A stretch of DNA of 64,000 nt from Diphasiastrum complanatum (taxonomy: Eukaryota; Streptophyta; Lycopodiopsida; Lycopodiales; Lycopodiaceae). The position numbers and the translations under genes were made by a program. The DNA lies in assembly GCA_029204225.1 (NCBI GenBank), contig CM055095.1:75407672-75471671 (forward strand), in the 5' to 3' direction. The notes under the pieces are model-generated. The model worked only from the letters and a program-made list of their open reading frames with translations, was not told where the DNA came from and did not search any database. Position 1 is the stretch's first letter. Each line of letters starts with the position of its first letter. Below are positions 3,712-64,000 of the stretch, piece after piece.

Positions 3712-3892
3712 ACTCTCGAGTGACGAGTCTCTAATATCTTTGTAGTATGTCCTAAACTCTAAATTCTAAGTTCTAACTAGTAACTCCTAAGTTCTAACTT
3801 CTAACTCAGTAGTAAGTAGTAAGTACCTACTACCCAGGTCCCACACCCCTCTTATAATGCACATGCCCCATACTGAACCCCATCAAGATTCA

Positions 3893-5408
<1,516 letters not shown>

Positions 5409-7244
5409 TGTTAAAATCACACAAGCTAGTTTGATATTTTCACTTGTAGATTGCATTGAGGCCATGTTGTGGGATGTCACACATGCCAAGAACATATAAT
5501 ACTTCTTCTAAGTCAAATCAATAACCTAGCTTTGGAATGGTACCTTTGGAATGAGGCCAAAATGTGCATAGATAGGCTAGAGAGATTCTAGGAGCTAAAG
5601 ATAGCAATTTTTATATTGTTTTGGATCTCAAGATTATGACACCCAATTAGGGTGGATCTTATGACCTAATAGGTTAAAAATTAGGTTTAGGTTATGGATG
5701 GATAAGAGGAAGCCCTAAATGAACTCTACAATTTGGCCCCAAATTCATGCAAAGAGGCTCACACGTGTGAAAGTACGCTCTGTTGTTGCCTGTGTACTGT
5801 ATCAGTACCTTCAAACTCATCTAATGATTACAAAAAAGACCATATGCCAATAGCAATCATGATTCAAATGATAGACAAAAGCTAGTCGTGAAGGAAGATC
5901 TCGATTTTACTCATAATTGGATGGATGATCCATCACATATTTATACATAAGTGCCTCATATTTGAGCATTTAGGGTTTCTTCTGATCCATCCATAAACTA
6001 AACCTAATTTGGCTCTAAATGGTACCTTTGCAATGAGGCCAAAATGTGCATAGATAGGCTAGAGAGATTCTAGGAGCTAAAGATAGCAATGTTTATATTG
6101 TTTTGGATCTCAAGATTATGACACCCAATCAGGGTGGATCTTATGACCTAATAGGTTAAAAATTAGATCTAGGTTATGGATGGATAAGAGGAAGCCCTAA
6201 ATGAACTCTACAATTTGGCTCCAAATTCATGCAAAGAGGCTGACACGTGTGAAAGTACGATCTGTTGTTGCCTGTGTACTGTATCAGTACCTTCAAACTC
6301 ATCTAATGATTACAAAAAAAACCATATGCCAATAGCAATCATGATTCAAATAATAGACAAAAGCTAGTCGTGAAGGAAGATCTCTATTTTACTCATAATT
6401 GGATGGATGATCCATCACATATTTATACATAAGTGCGTCATAGTTGAGCATTTAGGGTTTCTTCTGATCCATCCATAAACTAAACCTAATTTGGCTCTAA
6501 ATGGTACCTTTGGAATGAGGCCAAAATGTGCATAGATAGGCTAGAGAGATTCTAGGAGTTAAAAATAGCAATTTTTACATTGTTTTGGATCTCAAGATTT
6601 TTTCACCCAATTAGGGTGGATCTTATGACCTAATAGATTAAAAATTAGGTTTAGGTTATGGATAGATAAGAGGAAGCCCTAAATGAACTCTACAATTTGG
6701 CTCCAAATTCATGCAAAGAGGCTCACAAGTGTGAAAGTACGGTCTGTTGTTGCATGTGTACTGTATCAGTACCTTCAAACTCATCTAATGATTACAAAAA
6801 AAACCATATGCTAATAGCAATCATGTTGCAAATGATAGACAAAAGCTAGTCATGAAGGAAGATCTTGATTTTACTCATAATTGGATGGATGATCCATCAC
6901 ATATTTATACATAAGTGCCTCATATTTGAGAATTTAGGGCTTCTTTTGATCCATTCATAAACTAAACCTAATTTCTAACCTATTAGGTCATAATAGCCAC
7001 CCTAATTGAGGGTCAAGATCTTGAGATCCAAAACAATGTAAAATTTTCTAATTTTAGCTCCTAGAATCTCTCTAGCCTACTTGTGCACATTTTGGCCTCA
7101 TTCCAAAGATACAATTCCAAAGCAAGGTTATTGATTTGACTTAGAAGAAAGTATCGTATGCTTTTGGCACGTGTGAAATCCCACAACATGGCCTCAATGC
7201 AATTTACAATTGAAAATATCAAACTAGCTCGTGTAATTTTAACA
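5409..7244 (-). mobile_element. Palindromic LTR-like structure of element A with internal tandem array
   Basis: The 1836-bp block begins TGTTAAAATCACACAAGC and ends with the inverted form of TGTTAAAATTACACGAGC. Inward from each end about 260-300 bp are inverted copies of one another (5409 to about 5690 against about 6960-7244), including CATTGAGGCCATGTTGTGGG and AATGAGGCCAAAATGTGC. The right end abuts the minus-strand end of element A through GCTGTGAGGAG (7245-7255), so this is where its 3' LTR should start. Ordinary LTRs have only a few inverted terminal bases. Alternatives are two LTRs head to head with their inner ends lost, or a foldback element inserted at the LTR border. Confidence 0.75.
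5538..6975 (+). repeat. Three tandem 482-bp units
   Basis: Units start with TGGTACCTTTG(G/C)AATGAGG at 5538, 6020 and 6502, giving an exact 482-bp spacing twice; the third unit stops at about 6975 where the inverted arm takes over. Units differ by a few percent. Within each unit a segment near its first third (AAATTAGGTTTAGG..ATGGATGGAT) is present inverted near its end (ATCCATCCATAAACTAAACC), so every unit can fold on itself. Confidence 0.9.
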
Positions 7245-12935: not shown

Positions 12936-13160
12936 TGGTATTAGAGCGGTAGGGTGTTGCAGGTATGCACGATTTAATGGAGCCATTGTCGACATTTCTC
13001 ATCAAAAGAGCTAGAACGTGAGGTGTCTCAGGAGAGAGGACTCCATACGGGGGGTATAGGTAGTCCAGATGGCAAGGATCAACAAATATTCTTCAATCGA
13101 ATCTTTAGGGACACATTCAGAACGATCGGAATAAGATAATTTGTGAAGAAGTTGGAGAAA
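12936..13160 (+). mobile_element. PBS and leader of family Y, copy 1
   Basis: TGGTATTAGAGC (12936-12947) is the tRNA-Met primer-binding site with one change. The leader after it matches 59473-59660, including CTCAGGAGAGAGGACTCC and AGTCCAGATGGC. No gag follows; homology fades by about 13160. Confidence 0.75.
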
Positions 13161-22770: not shown

Positions 22771-25365
22771 AGTCAGTCAAGTCACACCCCAAGAACCACC
22801 AGCTGTAGCATCAAGTACATATCACAAAGGACGCTACATTTCACAAAGAAGGACGCTGGGGGTACCTAATCAAACCCAGCAATGATCAAGTCCTAGAACT
22901 TACAAGGAAATCCAAAACGCAGAGGAGTTATTTCCCGTGAACCAAAGAGCGAACGGGCCATAATCACAAGTGGAATGAAACTAGGAAGTTTCTGGAATGT
23001 CGATGAAACAAATGATGATCATAAATCGACGAACGGAGGCGCAGCGCGCTGCCTTGGATGTTCGCAACGGATAAGACTTGAGGAGCCTGGCTATGATCTA
23101 TCCAGCAGCACAATCATCCCATTACCCCGCCGCTATATGAGCAAGACAGAATAAATCATAAAGGATGTGTAGTGGATCCGTACTGTTGTCACTTGTTTCG
23201 TATGACATAGATTCTAGAACGTCGTTGAGTAGCAAGTTGCGCGTCCCATCCAGTCATCCACAGATAAAAGGAAGGTTAGGAGATAAGGTGTACTATGTAC
23301 TCGCCCTAACATTGGCATTTCATGTCGAACTCTTATTTGCCTTTCAACAAGGGTACAATTTGAAATCACTTTTTACTTTTAAAATTCAAATTCATGACAC
23401 CGCCGCATCTACTATGCTTTTGCCGAGATAAGAGTTTACATTTCTGATCTTTTGACATATATATATAAGCCTAGTATATATAAGGCTAGCATAAAGTTTA
23501 CATTTATCCTTTGACCTATAGTCACATATAAGCCATAAAGGCACTTGAGATTTCAAATTTTAATAGCTCTTCAATTTGAAAGAAGGATCTTCCCTGCAAG
23601 TTTCAATCCCCATGCTACCCCATGGCTAACACATTAGCATGATTATATATAGTGGTAAAGCAAATGGTGATCCACATTCACACAACCACCCTTAACTCAC
23701 AATCCACCACATGATATTTGAGATAAAAACATACAACAAGATAACAAAGAGAGAGATGGCCTAGCACATGGAGGTTTACAAAGGATGAAATCTAATCTAA
23801 TGAGGTTGGATGAGCATGGGTGTTCCACAATGAAAACAATCAAAGCTCTAAGATTTGTGTGCTTCGCCAAGCAACTCTAGCTAAAAAGAAACTTTAGAAC
23901 GTGGTTTATGATTATGTGGCCAAGCTAACACATTCTTATGTTTCGAGCCTATCTCTCAAAAAAACATTAGTTGCAATTAATGTTTGGATCATTTTCTTTT
24001 TTGTAGTAGAAGGCTAGATTAATGCTGACCATTCCTGCTATCTGCAATATATCTTAGCTTGATTTATGCTTTTATATATATGTTTTAAATTAAAACTGTC
24101 ATCATGACTTACAATCATTGCACTTTTGTTGTTATGAAATCCTAGTGTCAATATCGTACTTTGACAAAAACACAATTACTATACAAAATGTCAATGCCAA
24201 CCTCCTTAACCTCATGGTCCATTGCTCCAATCAACAATGCTAGTCTTGAAGATATATGAGACAATTGGCAATGTAATGGTCCTTCGAGAGGCAAGTAAAC
24301 ACAAAAAGTTGTCGAATTGTGGGGAGACAAATAAACTCATGAGTTTCTTTGCATGTACAATGAGAAATGAAACAACTTAAATAAGGGTAACACAACCACC
24401 AAGCAATGACAAAGATAGCAATTGAACTATCAATTGGATGTAATATTTCCACACCAAGATTGAGTATACATTGTGGAGAAAAAATTGAAGAAATGAACAA
24501 GAACTTCCATGAAGAAAAGGCCAACAAAATTTGAAACTAGTGCCAATCCTTCTCTTTTAAGACAAGTGCTCTTCTATATTTACATCCACTCCTAAGTTCA
24601 ATTACATCTCTGATGCAATAAATTGTGGGGAGAAACATTAGTCTAGAGGTAAAGGTGATTCCAAACTCCCCTCCAAGATCTTCAACACACAATAATGCCA
24701 ACAACATATTCCTACTTCAAGAGGGCAACAAGACCTTAATGAGGAGGTTTCATCCATCCCACCACAAGTATCTTGTAAACATAGTAATCTATAAATTACT
24801 TTGCTCAACATGAAATTAATGTAATAGGGCCTACAATGGCTTTGGTGGTTGTGTTTTTCAAAAATCTCTTACATGTATTGACATGATTTGATGTCAAGTG
24901 ACGGCTGATTCAACTAAGAATATTTTTAAAATGTTCTTCGCACCTTACACAAACCATGTCTAACACTAAAGCCAAAAACATAAATCATTAGAGAAGTTCC
25001 CGATGTTACAAGGGCCTCTTGTCAAGATTTTTTTTTTTTTTTTCACTTTTATGTCCATGTGACCCAATGCATTTCTTGATATTGTGGCCTCTACGTAACA
25101 TAACTCGTTTGACCCAAAAAGAACACAATTCATATTTGCAACGATTTGAATTTCCGGTCTGGCAGATTAAAAGCATATTATTGGCTGGCATGTGTAGCCC
25201 ATGGTTGTACTAAACTGCTTGGGTTAGCTCAAGTTAAAGCTATCTTGGAACTTCGAAATAACAATTACTACAATAGAGCACGAAATTGTAATGCTTTAGT
25301 TCCTATTATGCCCTCAACTCTCATATTGGCATATTCAAACATGAGACTCTTCAAGCTATTGCAAT
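22771..25365. other. Gene-free stretch
   Basis: 22.8-23.2 kb is less AT-rich than its surroundings but has no recognised product. At about 23468-23492 a short hairpin (AGCCTAGTATATATAAGGCT) occurs, and a T17 run at about 25028. An 88-codon frame at 23165-23431 shows no motif. Confidence 0.45.
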
Positions 25366-25564
25366 GAGAAGGAGACCAAGATCCTTGATCTGCTCTGCAA
25401 TTTTTATAATGAGAAGAAATACAATGGCACATGGATTGCCCGTGAATATCATAAGGCTTCTTGGGTACCAATGCATCCACTAGCAAGAGGGGCATTTCGG
25501 CAAAAGAAAAAGACAAAGTATAAATATGGATCTTATTGGAAAAGTCAGATTGCTGATTTCAAAG
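25366..25564 (+). pseudogene. Unknown ORF block shared with 61132-61332, copy 1
   Basis: Starts ATG-RRRPRS, loses one base soon after, then reads NGTWIAREYHKASWVPMHP, RGAFRQKKKTKYKYGSYWK and IADF. The copy at 61132 starts ATG-ARRPRSK and goes on LHNEKDDA, SWVLLHPSSKGMFRPKTKTK and ILDF with the same spacing. The family is not known to me. The pattern SWV-x2-HP-x3-G-x-FR-x-K-x-KTK-x4-SYWK-x2-I-x-DF looks like a real protein family. Here it runs straight into the gag zinc-knuckle region of copia element B, so it may be a captured piece or an insertion-site remnant. Confidence 0.55.
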
Positions 25565-25599
25565 TATCAAAGAAAGGCCTTCGACGAAGGGCAACTATA

Positions 25600-25790
25600 G
25601 CAAAGAAACTTCTACCTATAATCAATGTCACGAGTCGGGACACTCATAAGACAGATGTTGGTTCAATCCGACAATAGCTTCCACACACTGCAAGAAAAAG
25701 AGACATTCAGCATATGAATGTTGGCACAATTCCAAAGAAAAGCACAGATGCGAAAAACCAAATGTAGCAAAATCATCCAAAGGTGGCGAG
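25600..25790 (+). pseudogene. Element B: gag end with two decayed zinc knuckles
   Basis: One plus frame reads TYNQCHESGHS*DRCW and, shortly after, THCKKKRHSAYECWHN, which fit two successive CX2CX4HX4C knuckles each missing its first cysteine and the first with a stop. A Lys-rich tail (EKPNVAKSSKGGEKNDN) follows. The N-terminal two thirds of gag are not found upstream. Confidence 0.65.
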
Positions 25791-25839
25791 AAGAACGACA
25801 ATGCATTCACAGTCATCGATGAAGAGCCGACCACCTACA

Positions 25840-26130
25840 CGTAGAGCATGATTATGACATAGTGATTGACTCAGGAGCTACATCTCATATAACTTGCAAC
25901 AAGAATGTCTTGATCAACTACAGAGCATTGGAAAACACAAGAACAATGACACTGGGCAATGGGAGCAGACACGATGTCAAAGGTATCATAACTCTATAGT
26001 TCTGAACACTGTCAGGATATGTAGAGCTTTAAGGAGCACTCTATGTGCCTACGTTGAGAAGAGATCTACTCTCTGTATCGAGGATAGCAAACCTTGGAAT
26101 ACGAGTCCTATTCGATCATAATGCATGCTG
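25840..26130 (+). pseudogene. Element B: protease and start of gag-pre-integrase
   Basis: Plus strand HDYDIVIDSGATSHITCN gives the copia protease active site, with the DSGAT codons at 25868-25882, followed by TMTLGNGSRHDVKG. After a frame change GALYVPTLRRDLLSVSRIAN and FDHNAC are the usual lead into the gag-pre-integrase domain. Confidence 0.85.
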
Positions 26131-27117
26131 AATGGTTGAATAAGCTGTTGACTGTTGGATCAAGACAAGGTAATCTATACCAAGCAAAAATCATTAGCAG
26201 CTACGATAACATATTGAATGCATCCGAGAATGAAAATCATCTCTAGCATAGATGAATGTATCATCTGAACATAGGGAGTCTCTACGACATGAGCAAAATG
26301 GAAATCATGAGTGGTCTGAAAATTACAAGTCTGGACTCCGACTCCTATGAAGCTTGTTAGAAGAGTAAGTAGCATCGAAGTCCATTTGTACATGAAGGAA
26401 GGAGATCCAAGGAAATCCTTGAGCTAGTTCACTCAGATGTCTATGGATCGATGAAAGCTGGCTCCGTTTTAGGATCAAGATATTTTCTGCCATTCATAGA
26501 TGACTATATCAAGATGAAAACAATATACTATTTAAGAAAAAATATGAAGTGTTCGATGGATTCAAGAAGTTCATAGCATTTACAGAGCAGCACACTTCCA
26601 GGAATTGTAGACCCTCAGGTCCAATAATGGACGCAAGTATTTGAGAAAAGAATTTTCAAGCTTCTGCCAAGATAGAGGAATCGAGCATCAATTGACACAT
26701 GCCTATACACCACAATATAATGGTGTAGCAGAAAGACAAAATCGAACTCTTGTCGAAGGAGCTAAATGCATGATGGATCAAGCACAATTGCCAAGTCAGT
26801 TTTGGGCTGAGGCAATTGCAATTGTTGTACACCTTCAGAACCAATCGACAATGACAACATTGGATAATAAGACGTCATATGAAATGTGGATGGGTGAGAA
26901 GCTTGATCTGTCATATGTATGAGTGTTTGGATGTGTAGCATACATGCACATAACAAAAGAAAGGAGAAGCAAACTAGATGAGAAGTCACTGCAGACAATT
27001 ATGGTCAGATATTCAAATGCATCACAGATCTATCGACTCTACAATCCAACCTCAAACAAGGTGGTAATGAACGGAGATGTAAAGTTTGACGAATCGACAT
27101 TTCTAGGAGCCAAATAA
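26130..27117 (+). pseudogene. Element B: integrase, second catalytic Asp lost
   Basis: EILELVHSDVYGSMKA holds the first catalytic Asp. The second box reads LRSNNGRKYL where LRSDNGGEY is normal, so that Asp is Asn (about 26615-26630). Then HAYTPQYNGVAERQNRTLVEGAKCM gives the Glu region, and VFGCVAYMHI, RRSKLDEKS and VVMNGDVKFDES the C-terminus. Stops lie at about 26920 and within 26400-26640. Confidence 0.9.
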
Positions 27118-27299
27118 TTAAGAGGCCATGAAATCTACTCAAGAATATCGATTCAAGAGAGAGTTCACGGCCAGACATCGAACCAGAATGTCAAACCACA
27201 GACTCTAGAATAGAAAACAGAAGACCATCATGTCGAAGAATTCGAAGAACAAACATACCAACAATGACAAGACATATACGTCAAATTTTGCAGCTACAT

Positions 27300-28200
27300 T
27301 GAGGAGCCAACGACATATTTGGAAGCAATCCAAAACCCAGAAGGAGAATTTTTAAAGAAAGCAACGTCGGAAGAGATTGAATCGATGAAGCAAAATCAGA
27401 CGTGGACACTTGAACCACTTTTCGAAGGAAACAAAAAAGTCAATTGTGAATGGGTATACAAAAAGAAACTGAGATCAGATGACAGTGTCGGAAGATACAA
27501 AGCTTGACTTGTCGCTAAAGGCTACACTTAGAGGTATGGTATCGACTACTTTGATACATACTCCCTGATGGTCAAGATGTCGAGCATCCGGCTACTCCTC
27601 GCTTATGCTACGAAGTATGATCTAAAAGTACACCATATTGATGTAAGACAACCTTCCTCCATGGAGACCTAGACAAAGACATTTTCATGAAGCAGTCTGA
27701 AGGATACGAAGACTCAAACAATTGAGATTATGCATGTCGGTTGTATCGATGTATCTACGGTCTTAATCACACCTCGCGAGCTTGGTATAAGAAGCTCGAT
27801 GGTCTCTTGAAGTCTCTAGGCTTCACTCCTACACAACCTAACTCCAATGTCTATCTCAAAAGAATAGAAAAGAATTTTGTGATTTTGACAATATTTGTGG
27901 ACGATTCTCTGATGATGGAAAATTGTCTGACAATGATTAATGAAATGAAGAGTCAGATATCTATAAATAACAGGATCATACATGTAGGAGAAGTGACAAA
28001 ATGTATGGGGCTACAAATCAAAAGAGATCAAATAAGAGACCTCACGCACCTGAACCAGTCCGAATATGCTGAAAAAGTATTGAAGTGATATGGGATGATT
28101 GAGTGCAAACAAAAGGTGACATCAATGATAGGCGGAGCCAGATTGTCGAAGCATGATTGCCCAAAAGCACAGATGAGGAGAGACAAAAGATAGAGAGAAT
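27300..28200 (+). pseudogene. Element B: copia reverse transcriptase
   Basis: Reads EEIESMKQNQTWTLEPL, NCEWVYKKKLRSDDSVGRYKA, a stop, GIDYFDTYSLMVKMSSIRLL, HHIDV, DLDKDIFMKQSEGYED, YRCIYGLNHTSRAWYKKLDG and the catalytic box TIFVDDSLMM (FVDD form), then GEVTKCMGLQIKRD. Stops at about 27505 and 28088 and small frame changes near 27640 break it. Confidence 0.9.
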
Positions 28201-28872
28201 ACCATACCAAAATTTGATCGGGAGTCTGATGTATCTTACAATTTGTACAAGACCCGATTTAGCATTCTTTGTCTATTCACTCAGTCAATTCTCCTCGAAT
28301 CCTGGCATGCAACACTGGCTGATGGCAAAATGAATTCTACAATATCTGAAAGACACCCACAATTTCGTATTGATCTACAAAAGAGAGAAAGAATTCATCC
28401 TACAACATTATAGCGATGCAAGCTGGCCTAGCAACAAAGACAACAACAAGTCCGTAACAAGTGGATGTTCGATAGTATGCGGAGCTACAATCAAGAAACA
28501 GACACTCATAGCTCAATCCTCATGCGAAGCTAATGAATACACAATACCTTCAAAGGTGGAAAATGAGGTAGTGTGGTTGAAGAGGATGTTGGAAGGGATT
28601 GGAATACCCAATAAAACCCCTTCCATCATGAAGATGGATTTTCAGAGTGCTATTTATTTAGCCCAGAATCATGTTTTTCATTCCAAAACGAAACATATAC
28701 CTCTAAACTATCGTCATGTTCAAGATCTGATCTCAAAAGGAGAGCTCTGTGTTGAGTTTGTAAAAACAGAGGATATGATTATAGATCTACTGACCAAGCC
28801 GCTAAACAAGCCATTGTTTACAAAACATAGAAGATCAATGGGAATTGGATGAAGAGAAAGGTTACATCCTTC
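28200..28872 (+). pseudogene. Element B: RNase H
   Basis: Plus frame 28370-28852 holds HYSDASWPSNKDNNKSVTSG (DxSW form of the DADWA box), IAQSSCEANEYTIPS (STEAEY counterpart) and HSKTKHIPLNYRHVQDL with DLLTKPLNK at the end, closing with a stop 22 bp before the polypurine tract. The preceding part (28200-28370) is stop-ridden. Confidence 0.9.
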
Positions 28873-29200
28873 AAGAGGGAGTGTTGGAGATGGTGAACTC
28901 ATGCAACCCTTCTCTAGCATTCCCAGAATGCAAGCCAAGAATATTTCCAAAAGTGCTTTTCATTGCTATTGATCCTCCACACATGTCTATAGTTGTCCTA
29001 ACCCATGAAATAGCTTCACACATCACAATATGTGTGACTGGGTCCTCGCAAGATTATTAATTACATTTCTGGCCTAGTTTGGAATAACGAGACGTAACTA
29101 ATAATCTCAAGGACTGGAGTACCGTGTATCCAAGTGTAGGACTATACTGAATCCTATATGCAAGATGTGGACGTATCACTCTTCTCTCCATTGAAATGGT
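28873..29200 (+). mobile_element. Element B: polypurine tract and 3' LTR
   Basis: AAGAGGGAG (28873-28881) followed by TGTTGGAGATGG marks the LTR start at 28882. I cannot place the 3' end; it is at least some 300 bp. The LTR contains the palindromic pair CACAATATGTGTG near 29023. No matching 5' LTR was recognised upstream. Confidence 0.75.
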
Positions 29201-30825
29201 TTTGTCCTCAAAGCAAGAAAGAAAATCATAAACCATTAACTTTCAGATTTATCTAAAAAATCGTTATTCTTAGTCTGACTTTACATATTAGACAAGTACT
29301 TAGAGATAGAAGGATTATTTTATCTCTATTTTGGAGTAAAAATTTAAGTTTGAAAAGTACACTAAGTGATTTCCCGTTTGAATTTCACTCTCTATAAGTT
29401 AGTAATATCACCTTCATGTAAAACACTTTACATGACACACTGGATGAAGCATTATTACCTAACTCATGATATCATAGTTAAAGAAACTGACAATTATAGT
29501 CTATAATTATCCACAACCTCTTGTAGACAATTCATAAATGCTTCTTGGTAAAAATACTCCTAGAATCCAAATTTTAAGGTATAACAATACATTCAACTAG
29601 AATCTCTAGGAGGTCCATTAAGATAGCATATGATCTTAACTCAACTCTGAGTATCCTAGATACTGTCTTGAGTTCAATGCCCCTATTTTTAGCATCTCAT
29701 GCAAGAAACTAACAACCATTTAATCTTAAAAGATTTCTCTTATAACAATTAGAGATCTAGACTAGAAACTGTTCCCAAGCATTTACAAACTATAATCTAT
29801 CATCGAATACCAAACAAGAATGTTTGTGACACTCAAATGTTCTTAGTTCATTGGAGTTAAAAGATTTAGATTTTCAACATACTGATCTGAATTTCTAACT
29901 CATTTAATAGATCAAGAATTACTCAATATATTTAAGAATGGTCATATTTTATTGTAATCTCTTTTTAATAATTAAGTATCTATTTATGATTTGTCGATCA
30001 CAAATACTCAGATTCTTATGATTCGTCAATCATAATTTACTGGAATTCAAGACCAAACTTAATCATTAAAGGATACTAGAGTGTATTTCCAACATAACTC
30101 AGGAAATATAAGAATCATTCCAAAATCTTTTTCCATGAAAGAAATACTGAATTTTTAGAATATTTTCCAAACCAGATTCTTAATAGAAATGCAAGATATT
30201 AAAGTTCTATAGGCCACAGATAAATAAAGATAGAAAGCATACCAAAATAATACTAATAACCATCTTCAACTACGAAGCACTTTAGATTCCTATCTAGAAC
30301 TAAATCTAGACACCCAAAGTTTTGTTGAATATAGATTAAGTTGTCATTCTTAAGTTAAGTGGTCATTCTTAATCATTAATATTTGCTATCCAATTGAGCT
30401 CTCTAGGGTACAATCACTAATGAGCTGAGTCTATTCCTTGACTGAGAAATCCTCTATACCAAGAAAATCGGATATCCTATGTGCATAGCTCACAAATCAT
30501 GCGTCTTACAAGCAATATAACTCCAAACAAATAGTTACTGGTGAATTTTCTTCAGACTGATCATTTTTTTAACTTCATCTAGGAGTAAACCAGCTACTCA
30601 AGGCAATTGCCAATGATTTAGAAATCTCAAATGTCTAGGAGCAAATCTCAATTATACTAGTACAATACCACATTCAGTTTCTCATCCAAACCATTTCTAG
30701 GTTAACTAATAAATCTTCCACAAAAATATCTGTTAACTCTGAAATATCTATTCCAAACAATACTTTGTCATATGTCTATGTTTACCGACTGGTTTGTTTT
30801 TAATTTTGGAACTCCTCTAATGATA
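29201..30825. other. Gene-free AT-rich stretch
   Basis: No domain or LTR edge recognised. By position it could hold decayed sequence of element G, whose readable part begins abruptly at about 30826. Confidence 0.45.
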
Positions 30826-43740: not shown

Positions 43741-43959
43741 AAATATCTGGTGGTTGGCAGCTTTCTAGGTATATTTGCTCATTCAATAATGAATATGACT
43801 GAAGTTTTAAATCAAACTAACTAGCTATGTTGATTTTTGATTTTAATGGTACATTTCCGTTGATAATTTTTGAAAGAGGATCATGATATTTTATCATGGA
43901 TATTCTACTGAACATCTTAACTCTGAAATGCATGTCTAATGTTTCTCATGGAGCCACAT

Positions 43960-44340
43960 CTAAGCATCCATGCATATGTTGCATGAAACTAGCGAAAGAT
44001 GTTACAAGAAGTACATGTATAACAAGAGAAAAAATGGATGCTATAAGCTGCGAACGGCAGATCAAAGAGTCACCGACTTTGCTGGACATCTTTCAAATTT
44101 TTCTATTTGGATTGCAGGTGTTAAATTTATTATTGAATGTGTTATATTCGACCTACCCGACAATGTACATACTTACAATGTCTTTCTTGGTATGCCCTGG
44201 CTATAGATGGCAGGAGTCGTTCAAGATTGGAAAATAAGTAAGATCACCTTTGGCAATACTGATAAGAGAGTCACTGTTGACTCGACAAGCCAAGTAAAGC
44301 TAGCCAAAGTTAATGACGATTGGTCATCAACCACCTATGT
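43960..44340 (+). pseudogene. Ty3/gypsy protease C-terminal fragment
   Basis: The plus frame reads GHLSNFSIWIAGVKFIIECV, IFDLPDNVHTYNVFLGMPWL, a stop, then GVVQDWKISKITFG and VTVDST. The LGMPWL box followed by DW and the beta-strand ITF is the hallmark of Ty3/gypsy-type retropepsin ends. The active-site Asp part and the RT are missing. The fragment ends shortly before the LTR of element D. Confidence 0.78.
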
Positions 44341-60265: not shown

Positions 60266-60633
60266 TGACTCATCATTCAATGCTTTCATCCTCAAAATAA
60301 AAGTACTTGGACTTTCTTCACTCTTTTGCAAACAAGAAAAGATTTGTCTTCTTAGAGTCAACACTATAGAACTAGACTTGGATTCATAAAGCTTCTTCAA
60401 TGAATCCCAAGCCTCACTTGATGAAGTACACTTACCAACTTCCTTGAGAAACTCATTGGTAACATTCATTTTGATCATGTGTAGAGCCCTTTTGGCCCTC
60501 TTATCATGCCTCAATTGTTCTTGTTGTGTTGCTAGTCTCTCCTCCAAACCTACAACAATATCCAAAACATCATTCATCTCAAGAAGTGATTCCATCCTCA
60601 CTTTCTACAATGAATAGTTACTTGAGGTAATCA
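60266..60633 (-). pseudogene. Element Z: gag N-terminal half
   Basis: Minus strand: TSSNYSL*KVRMESLLEMND (stop in place of the usual Trp), VLDIVVGLEERLATQQEQLR, DKRAKRALHMIKMNVTNEFL, SSSEAWDSLKKLYESKSSS and FILRMKALNDES, after which the family Y insertion begins at about 60265. The gag C-end, knuckle and protease site are missing on the far side, so the insertion came with, or was followed by, a deletion. Confidence 0.9.
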
Positions 60634-61131
60634 TTAGAGGAGTTTCAAAATTAAAAAAAGACTCTTCCTAAAGATGCTTTTTATTTTTTTCTTAGTTTCA
60701 TCCGCCATGTGGCCCAATGAAATTGCATATATTTGAAATCTACGTAACGTAAATAGAAATAATAAAGTTATAAAAATCAACTTTTAAAAATTTTGAATTT
60801 GCCACCGGGCAGGATGGGAAAATGCTATTGGTGGATAGTGTCTGCCCTGAACGTGTGAATATGCCTGACAACATTGTCTATAGTTAATTATTTAACCACA
60901 CCGGTTAATATGCTCATAAATTTCAAACTACACAGGTTTGCCAACAGTAAGTCATCACATGCATAGGAATTGGTGACATGCATCACAGTTAGACAATAAG
61001 CATAGTTACCACATGTTGTTACTATTGTGGTCCAGTTATCCATTCACATTGAATAAGTATCATAAAACATTGAGTCGATTTGGCATTTTATAGATTTGAG
61101 AATTTGGCGCTAAACTTTGGAAGCAATCGGT
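60634..61131. other. Stretch with no recognised feature
   Basis: AT-rich; no motif or repeat edge seen. Confidence 0.45.
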
Positions 61132-62261
61132 ATGGCCAGGAGACCAAGATCTAAAATTGAATTAGTGATTCTTCACAATGAAAAGGATGATGCTTGATTT
61201 TGATAACCAACAAGATATATAAAAAACTCATGGGTTCTACTGCATCCATCCTCAAAAGGCATGTTTAGACCAAAAACGAAAACAAAGATGACATTCAAAT
61301 CATATTGAAAAGCAAAGATCCTTGACTTTATGACTTCTCCAGGAGGGCAATCAATCTCAGAAGTCTTGGTTCAACATGTCTATATGCATTCGGAGTTGTA
61401 TCTACAAGATTTCAATATTCATGATCGCCAAAAATGTAACTGTAAGTTTAAAAAAAATTGGGATCTTTATTATAACATTCATGCTTTTGAAACTTGTTGA
61501 AATCATATCAGTTATCATATATGTATTGCATTCTTGCAGATTTATATCCATCCAACATAAGCAAATGGGAGCCAACACAATCCCTAGCAGGTATATTGGA
61601 TGTGATTCATTCGGATATTGGAAAATTACAATACAGAGGAAGAACTTCTAAGGAGCTTACAGATAGTGGTATATTTTTCTATAAGTCCAAGTACATTCCA
61701 GATATGCATGGAGGTTTCGGAAAGCTTGAAGATATACCACTACCACATTTTGGAAGTGATGAATGGCTTGCACCTAATAGTATGGTGTCAGAATCTTATA
61801 GATAAAAATTACTTTTAGATTTGAAAAACTCAATGAAAGCTAGCACTGGATCAAAAGTCAATAGACTAAGTTGGTTCCTATTCTTATATGTATTTGTAGA
61901 TTTTTTTTCAAATGCAAATGTTCGTAGAACACCAACATTATTTCTTTGAAAGGAAGTGCCAGATGACACTCTTTCAGATCTGATGGATGTGGGTTGGGAA
62001 TGCAAGGTAGTTGGAGATATTGAATGTAGAATTAAGAAATCATCTACGATATTTTGTAATTGCATTGCAAGACAAATGCTTAGTCTTACATTCAGTTACC
62101 AGAGATGGAAACGAATAAGTGGGAGATGGATGCCACTCGATCAAGATCTTCAAATGGATGATTACACAGATAAAAAAGAAATCCACATTTTCAACAATGA
62201 AGATATGCTAACTACAATTATAGTGGAGGATCATTGGAGCTCGAGTTATATCTGGTCTTAA
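61132..62261 (+). pseudogene. Spliced gene model of unknown family, partly decayed
   Basis: The first block starts ATG-ARRPRSKIELVILHNEKDDA, then has TGA, TGA and TAA in place of residues that are open at 25366, then SWVLLHPSSKGMFRPKTKTK and KILDFMTSPGGQSISEV. A clean model follows: the exon to 61441 joins 61540 (intron GTAAGT..TTGCAG, 98 bp) and keeps frame into YLYPSNISKWEPTQSLAGIL, GKLQYRGRTSKELTDSGIFF and DIPLPHFGSDEWLAPN. A second intron (61780-61956) leads into DDTLSDLMDVGWECKVVGDI to the stop at 62259. I do not recognise the protein. It converges on the Ulp1-like gene. Confidence 0.5.
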
Positions 62262-62760
62262 TGCACAATAAAATTCTACCAGAACACTTCGGATTCATTA
62301 TCAAAGGAAAGCTCGTAAGATTTTGATCTGATTTGCAAATCAGTCAATGATCATATATGTAACTTTATTAGAGAATAGACAAATTAACAAGTTGCTTATC
62401 TTTCATGCAAATACAAAAAAGACAGGAAAACACAACACCCTGCAAGGATCTTCCAACAGATATTAGCATTGTAGAAGAACAATGAAAATCCATACAATCA
62501 ATTGTACAAATTGGTATCTGTATTCAATAAAAGATCACTTGAACTTGGGGATTTTGTACATCTGTTCAAATGATTTTGTTTCTGTATGTCTATATCTCTA
62601 TAATTCTATTTCTATATGTTTATATGTCTATCTATTCAGCTTGGGTATTTACAAATTGCCCAGTCTCATTCAAAATCTGAACATCGTTTGGCTTAGATGG
62701 CCCAACATCAGTCTTTGGTCTATCAGTTGACCAGGCCAATAGACTAAGAATGATCTCCTG
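62262..62760. other. Intergenic stretch between converging genes
   Basis: No motif; T-rich short repeats of TATATCTATA type near 62590-62640. Confidence 0.45.
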
Positions 62761-63971
62761 TCAAAATCTGTACACTTCGCCAGCGATATAATCACTGAGG
62801 GCAAACTGCAATAAACACTATATTAGATGAATATTAATAACAAACAATAGTTTACATAAAGATAAAATAGAAAGGGCTAATAACTCACCTTCGAAATATC
62901 AACATCCTCCTGAAGATTGTACCACTGGAAAAATAACTTTGCATTGTATAGAGTACACCATGCACAGCTAAATGAGTCATTTTGATGGCGTGTCTACAAT
63001 ACATTCAATTGATTAATAATGTGATGAAGGTACTAATGCTTAACAATGATGATAAACAAAAATACACCAGAAATGTTCAATGATTATCTCAATGCTCACA
63101 TTTTCACATTTTTATGCCGTGGGATTCTCTATTGGAAAATATTTACATATTTCCAGCAACAGCGAGTCAATATTCTTATGTGTATTGCTGGCAGAATTCA
63201 TCTTTACACAAAGAAGATTTACAATATTATTATCTGTGATTTTTACAAAAATTACAATTAAGCTCCAGTGATCACTACAAAAAATCATGAAGAATGTCAT
63301 TAGATAAACGATACGATAATTACAAGTAAAGAAGTAGACAAGTAATGAATTTGACAAATAAAGAGGTAGACATACTTGGTATGATATGGCATCAACAAAA
63401 ACCTCACAGCAGGTGAGCAAGCACCAAGGATACAGTGTGATAAAGTGTCGTTGTTGTCCTTGATGCCTTGCAGGAAAAAATTGTTGAGAAGCGCCACTAC
63501 TTTCATTGAAACCCTTGCTATATCATACTGTAGTAAGGGAAGACCAGCCTCAATCATTGGATCGCTAATAGAGGCCCTTCTATCCTTCATCTGCAAGAAA
63601 TCTGGAATTTTAAAACTAAGAGTAAAACCAATCTCTTCTATTTGGAAGAGGATTGGCATGCCGATACTATCTATCGCATCTAAAATATCTTTCTCAAACT
63701 TTAAATAATCATCAGAATCTAAATATGATATAGGTTTGACATTAACGGGAGTAGGCAGGAGAGTATCTACAATGGAGGGAATGTCCAAAATTTTTGTGGC
63801 CGAATCAACCACAATATCAAGAGCTACAATATTTACAATTCCATCATCTCGAGATGTGGAAGCTTGGAGGGTCATACGTCGGATCTTTTTGGGAGCCTGA
63901 GAAGAGGATGGCTTGCTTCGAGGCGTTTAAAATGCTCAATGTAGTTTCGGACAGACTCTTTGCGACGCATC
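62761..63971 (-). CDS. Ulp1-like (peptidase C48) cysteine protease gene, partial
   Basis: Minus-strand spliced model. The exon ending at 63376 codes KPSSSQAPKKIRR, an unknown N-terminal part and AVRFLLMPYHT. Splicing over 63275-63375 (GTATGT..TGTAG) joins it to exon 2 as PYHT-N-DHWSLI, the Ulp1 His box. Exon 2 goes on to LLLEICKYFPIE; the usual LHLDS Asp is not found (NLLCVKM in its place). Exon 3 (62889-62993) reads TRHQNDSFSCAWCTLYNAKL, with Gln and the nucleophile Cys six apart as in Ulp1; it joins exon 4 (62761-62805, FALSDYIAGEVYRF, stop) across an 83-bp intron. The join of exons 2 and 3 is unresolved and may hide a break. A possible start at 63971 (MRRKESVRNY) is out of frame with the main exon. 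C48 domains occur both in host deSUMOylases and in plant transposons; I cannot tell which this is. Confidence 0.6.
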
Positions 63972-64000
63972 TTGATATGAGTAATTTGAATGAATGGGCT
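63972..64000. other. Window edge
   Basis: Too short to interpret; probably 5' sequence of the Ulp1-like gene. Confidence 0.4.

Follow-up and report, generated by a model that had tools for sequence, protein, structure and literature searches.

Two decayed blocks of reading frame in Diphasiastrum complanatum most probably belong to a high-copy DNA transposon that also carries a histone H3-Ulp1 gene

In a 64,000-nucleotide stretch of Diphasiastrum complanatum DNA (assembly GCA_029204225.1, contig CM055095.1; hereafter the window), a short reading frame occurs beside a copia retrotransposon and again some distance downstream. This raises the questions of what the two blocks are and how one of them came to lie against a retroelement. 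A sequence-only reading of the window had described them as one ORF family and suggested that a retroelement had taken up one copy. Our analysis identified A and B as old copies of a single DNA transposon, and we consider it highly probable that this transposon is a high-copy element with CATTA inverted-repeat ends, of which both are degraded copies.

The alignment of block A (25364..25568, plus strand) and block B, which begins exon 1 of what we call gene X (61132..61441, plus strand), starts from an ATG in each (25364 and 61132) and runs over ~72 codons. The local score was 135, whereas the best of 2000 shuffles reached 48, which bore out the claim that one ORF family occurs twice in the window (25.4 kb and 61.1 kb). 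The codon-for-codon alignment from the ATG, earlier described over ~66 codons, was recovered at the greater length; block A had been located correctly, but its start had been put at 25366, 2 bases after the ATG. The conserved motifs MRRRPRS/MARRPRS, SWV..HP...G.FR.K.KTK and SY(W/stop)K..I.DF were also present as described. A tblastx comparison of A with B gave 22/44 identical residues (E ~1e-9). In 20,000 neutral simulations at equal DNA divergence, the number of identical codons averaged 12 and reached 21 at most, compared with the 22 of 44 observed, and P was 0.00005 to 0.00015 when the block was cut shorter or longer. The remaining two frames showed no excess identity in the neutral simulation. 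Since the identity exceeded the simulations in one frame only, A and B diverged as coding sequence, and the two blocks are homologous coding sequence. Each copy was damaged differently, as the sequence-only reading had noticed: block A carries a one-base frame change past RRPRS, after codon 7, and the first 73 codons of block B are interrupted by four in-frame stops. An AlphaFold model of the 64-residue block, made with two sequences, had a mean pLDDT of 48.8 and was set aside.

The homology between A and B extended upstream of the ATG (71% over 125 bp), back to a common CATTA terminus at 24986 and 60632, respectively. The terminus reads CATTAGAG(G/A)AGTT at both positions, and a third one was found on the minus strand at 30822. 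Copy A of the transposon (24986..25568, plus strand) comprises the left end (CATTAG...), the gene X upstream region and the start of exon 1. Copy B (60632..63926) has its left end inside a copia gag on the minus strand (Pfam E 2e-10), which is split by the terminus at 60632; a related copia at 45.8 kb has its gag unbroken. The right part of copy B is cut by gypsy-gag-like sequence at ~63.93-64.0 kb, as judged by eye. The third terminus (CATTAGAGGAGTTCC..., 30795..30822, minus strand) abuts the RNase H frame of a copia. Read as opposite ends of a single element, 24986 and 30822 had neither flanks that match by eye nor a common interior, and the interior beside 30795-30822 showed no match to A or B. 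Besides this terminus at window 30795-30822 (minus strand), CATTAGAGGAGTT termini were observed at L017:9841 and L026:2727, where L numbers denote genomic loci; they possibly belong to a wider group of CATTA elements.

Block A directly abuts the zinc-knuckle part of a 5'-truncated copia (25569..28882, plus strand) with matched IN, RT and RNase H, in which the zinc knuckles at ~25.6 kb and the start of the 3' LTR at ~28883 were assigned by eye. This abutment and the known occurrence of additional ORFs in plant LTR elements are in line with an alternative in which the copia acquired the 5' portion of gene X to serve as an extra gag-like ORF and then spread it. We searched the genome (1.745 Gb) with block A (25366-25600) and obtained 347 candidates, 40 of which were scored. 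In 38 of these 40 (identity 87-88%), the match ended at query position 202-203, corresponding to 25567-25568, where the copia starts. The whole query including the copia junction was covered by two scored copies, locus A itself and a second copy ~335 kb off. This second copy (C4 ~75.097-75.100 Mb, inverted orientation; window 23842-27344) was 99.6% identical across the 3.5 kb compared, flanks included, and therefore stems from a duplication of the entire locus. Furthermore, the gene X frame is open to 25674 and the zinc knuckles are read in another frame. The junction is thus out of frame and the present sequence encodes no fused gene X/gag protein; the knuckles do start soon after block A, as reported earlier, but no fusion was found. 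Neither a 5' LTR (in a repeat search) nor a gag N-terminus of this copia was found, and a Pfam search of the block gave no match to Retrotran_gag_2. The block is part of another repeat and not ordinary gag of the adjoining copia lineage; it does match a transposon ORF, that of a transposon absent from all libraries searched. With nearly all scored copies stopping at the junction, one of the two junction-bearing copies being a locus duplication, the frame broken and the 5' LTR missing, the suggested uptake by a retroelement was not borne out, and we regard capture followed by spread as extremely improbable. One insertion and one deletion account for the junction between A and the copia; capture and spread do not. 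The copia would be a separate, single arrival, in the simplest case an insertion followed by a deletion in which the copia lost its 5' end and the remainder of gene X was removed.

For the ends of the transposon, 17 of 38 copies were read with long flanks and adjoining stretches, with the short loci L005 and L006 left out. Among the first 11 long copies, 7 have a left end that starts at the same base, CATTAC, beside unrelated flanks; the other 4 are without that part. Three copies, L11 (L011 joined with L023), L20/L025 and L30, extend to a common right end, ...GTAA(C/T)TCCTCTAATG (...CTAATG), and the right ends differ among copies because of internal deletions and truncations. The right end repeats the left one in inverted orientation (CATTACAGGAGTTCTCAAACTTAGAAGGGCCGT versus CATTAGAGGAGTTACAAACATCAAAAGGGCCGT), giving imperfect inverted repeats of ~33 bp. 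The inverted-repeat score was reached by none of 1000 shuffles in 8 of 12 left/right pairs; one other pair was matched by 1 of 1000, and the three with the altered left end of L30 were matched by 3, 5 and 229. L30 carries both ends in 7,125 bp and, compared with L11, has lost one large internal stretch. From L11, which is without the first ~140 bp and ends at 12986, a complete element would measure ~8.7 kb, a length pieced together from alignments of incomplete copies. A string search of 7 copies revealed no clear target-site duplication, and the flanks of L30, the sole copy with both ends read, are ATC and ATT. The differing flanks, the defined ends, the ends inside copia genes and the internal deletions show that the element moves.

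All three ends in the window read A|TCATTAG, and gene fragments are typical Helitron cargo, so the element might be taken for a Helitron with captured gene fragments. However, CATTAC is preceded elsewhere by G, T, C or A, leaving no fixed TC end, and the right end is an inverted repeat of the left one. A Helitron is hence scarcely credible, and a DNA transposon with CATTA inverted-repeat ends remains our assignment. The inferred full-length element of ~8.7 kb would hold, from the left end, gene X (plus strand, two exons, ~376 aa) and a convergent minus-strand H3-Ulp1 gene, with additional ORFs on the plus strand and, in the right half, a transposase candidate on the minus strand. Repeated units containing CACGTG, possibly a protein-binding array, were seen by eye at L011:8091-8311, which separates the region upstream of the H3 from the right half. 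Elsewhere in the window, at ~5530-6990, we saw by eye a repeat of at least three units with ~482 bp spacing (matches at 5828, 6310 and 6792), and an Rfam search of the window returned nothing.

The block is part of exon 1 of gene X (~376 aa). In full copies, exon 1 extends past the block (MAMRRRPRSLICSAIFYNE...) and exon 2 runs to a stop, and the layout is the same in copy B at 61132-62261. Exon 2 of copy B (61540..62261, plus strand) contains further in-frame stops, and its splice sites were inferred from GT..AG and the relatives. The earlier observation that block B precedes a further exon therefore stands, with the same exon in the relatives. Gene X of copy B, with exons joined by hand, was 54% identical to that of L016, and the gene X exons together with the middle and Ulp1 parts of copy B showed 24-57% protein identity to full copies. 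Searches of gene X pieces against Pfam, PHROGs, NCBIfam, PDB, IMG/VR and GTDB gave nothing beyond chance (best E values of 0.033 in Pfam, 0.1 in PHROGs and 0.057 in PDB), in agreement with the earlier remark that the family is unfamiliar. Beside the main-family copy in L017, a second, diverged copy of gene X and Ulp1 was observed in the same order (1831-2975 and 3810-4223; 33-61% protein identity).

With its intron and host-like structure, gene X could pass for an ordinary host gene family whose dispersed pseudogenes include A and B. However, the genome holds hundreds of candidates, the copies have termini in common, and a convergent second gene lies within the same repeat, which makes a host gene family very unlikely. 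Gene X, present in no protein library searched, belongs to the transposon, and annotation could count it as a host gene. Its product would most likely serve the element in an accessory or regulatory role.

The relatives carry, convergent with gene X, a minus-strand gene whose product combines a histone H3 domain with a linker, a middle domain and an Ulp1-type cysteine protease. The H3 domain at L011:7454-7816 (minus strand) matched Histone in Pfam (E 7.4e-16) and H3.3 in PDB (E 4.7e-17), with an N-terminal ARTK..TAR. Among the 17 long copies, six (L11, L016, L018, L20, L30 and L027) hold all or nearly all of the H3, L029 holds its first 24 residues only, L017 its last 28 only, and nine have none. 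The complete H3 and the linker are open in one 227-codon frame in L018, and one 356-codon frame in L30 runs from mid-H3 through the linker into the middle domain, indicating that the H3 and protease gene was once a single reading frame. None of the six copies holding most of the H3 has the whole H3-Ulp1 gene open throughout. All seven copies that have the tail retain K4 and carry leucine at position 9, and in the six copies having all of the tail it is shortened, with the K27 and K36 motifs absent (by eye). The residues TNLLIP and VTLM resemble plant CENH3, loop 1 has the canonical length, and the overall scores favor H3.1 over CENH3 (191 versus 162 and 175 versus 157) with provisional reference sequences. 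The region just upstream of the H3 gave 232 candidates in the genome, and the 40 scored were at 86-100%.

What copy B retains of this gene is the middle part and the Ulp1-type protease, at 62883..63728 (minus strand); the H3 part is absent, and gypsy-gag-like sequence occupies its place (by eye). The peptide MRRKESVRNYIEHFKR, considered as the start of the Ulp1 gene in copy B, was dropped because it proved gypsy-gag-like, by eye, once the sequence past the window end was read. Joined L016 exons matched Peptidase_C48 with an E value of 1.2e-4, above the curated cut-off, and three of five members matched, with 6.5e-7 as the best value. Single pieces were weak against Pfam, with E values of 0.042 for one L016 piece and 0.3 for copy B alone, in a query that still included the peptide later dropped. 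PDB searches with the Ulp1 part, including a profile search, gave chance matches only, and nothing was found in IMG/VR with the middle part. Of the catalytic residues, His-Trp and Gln were present in 5/5 rows of the alignment and Cys in 4/5, and Asn occupied 5/5 rows in the column that we take to be the site of the catalytic Asp.

The H3 sequences were compared by codon position. Among the five closer copies, variable sites numbered 19/27/27, and this even spread indicates that these copies drift neutrally. The H3 of the diverged copy L027 differed from that of L018 at 28/18/52 sites, with a third-position P of 4.5e-5, and P was 2.5e-5 to 6.6e-4 for L027 against the five copies compared. In addition, 98/131 residues were identical between L027 and L018, whereas 10,000 neutral simulations gave a mean of 72 and a maximum of 84. 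The H3 evolved under protein constraint between the two lineages, L027 and the main family, and the codon pattern supports the view that a working H3 protein was maintained in the past. Because the L9 tail and the linker are also present in L027, it is simplest to assume one capture, with constraint acting afterwards within the element; two separate captures from a host gene under constraint would be another, less simple reading.

Plant DNA transposons are well known to transduplicate genes (PMC13317346). Together with the neutral codon pattern of the five closer H3 copies, this is consistent with gene X and the H3-Ulp1 gene being passive cargo, host fragments that the transposon acquired and that had no role in it at any time. 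However, three diverged lineages (the main family, copy B and the second copy in L017) all combine gene X with Ulp1 in one and the same arrangement, the divergence of A from B shows protein-level constraint, and so does that of the L027 H3 from the main-family H3. The constraint on the L027 H3 raises the odds of a functional reading somewhat and makes passive cargo unlikely.

The best transposase candidate is a minus-strand ORF of 282 codons in the right half (L023:403-1248), present in part in L12, L20 and L30. Three candidate minus-strand ORFs, which are pieces of a broken copy, had no Pfam match at E<=1, Transposase_21 and MULE included, and the longest gave nothing better than E 0.23 against PDB. 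A six-frame scan of 60600-64000 likewise gave no match to a MULE transposase. The candidate shows C-x2-C and H-x4-H near acidic residues, presumably the pattern of CACTA/CMC and Transib transposases, which we treat as a lead only. A fragment at 43860..44039 (plus strand) is 43% identical to the candidate over 60 codons, indicating that a more distant relative of the transposon is also present in the window. Transposition would probably proceed by cut-and-paste through this candidate.

The block itself is ordinary transposon decay, yet it leads to a multi-gene transposon with constrained H3-Ulp1 cargo, and the H3-Ulp1 neighbor gene is the part worth following. Its protein would most likely counter host silencing of the element. 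Tentatively, we consider it possible that it acts against silencing through the nucleosome, by a K4-keeping H3 that cannot be methylated at K9 or K27 and a protease that strips SUMO-like modifiers from silencing factors. Such an H3, in element chromatin or as a decoy, would block silencing based on H3K9 and H3K27, and the Ulp1 part would remove SUMO or similar modifiers from silencing factors.

CACTA elements (En/Spm, CMC) have CACTA ends, short inverted repeats, several genes and a 3-bp target duplication. The element described here resembles them in its CATTA ends close to CACTA, its short inverted repeats, its several genes and the C-x2-C/H-x4-H candidate. It differs in that its ~33-bp inverted repeats begin with CATTA and not CACTA, and in the absence of a Pfam transposase match; the flanks of L30, ATC and ATT, give no clear 3-bp duplication. 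Fungal DNA transposons reportedly encode TET/JBP dioxygenases; they are alike in carrying a gene for DNA or chromatin modification and unlike in cargo and host. In Dothideomycete fungi, hAT transposons with a captured H3 gene are described for Pyrenophora tritici-repentis (PMC3538342) and Pseudocercospora fijiensis (PMC6710886). These are also DNA transposons that amplify an H3-like sequence, and the P. tritici-repentis element has a further ORF with no assigned function (PMC3538342); however, the host is a fungus, the transposase is of the hAT type, and the available parts of both papers describe no H3-Ulp1 fusion. Captured H3 in fungal hAT elements and Ulp1 in plant MULEs are thus known separately, and in the open-licence literature searched we found no report of an H3-Ulp1 fusion or of a plant transposon with an H3-Ulp1 gene. 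According to PMC13317346, the VANDAL and Kaonashi non-TIR MULEs of plants are several-gene transposons with one Ulp1-domain gene (KIU/VANC), and VANC proteins counter silencing. Compared with these MULEs, the present element has clear inverted-repeat ends and an N-terminal histone H3, and no MULE domain was found in it. Anti-silencing by a transposon's own protein is known from VANC; a route through a modified histone, if true, would be new and is directly testable.
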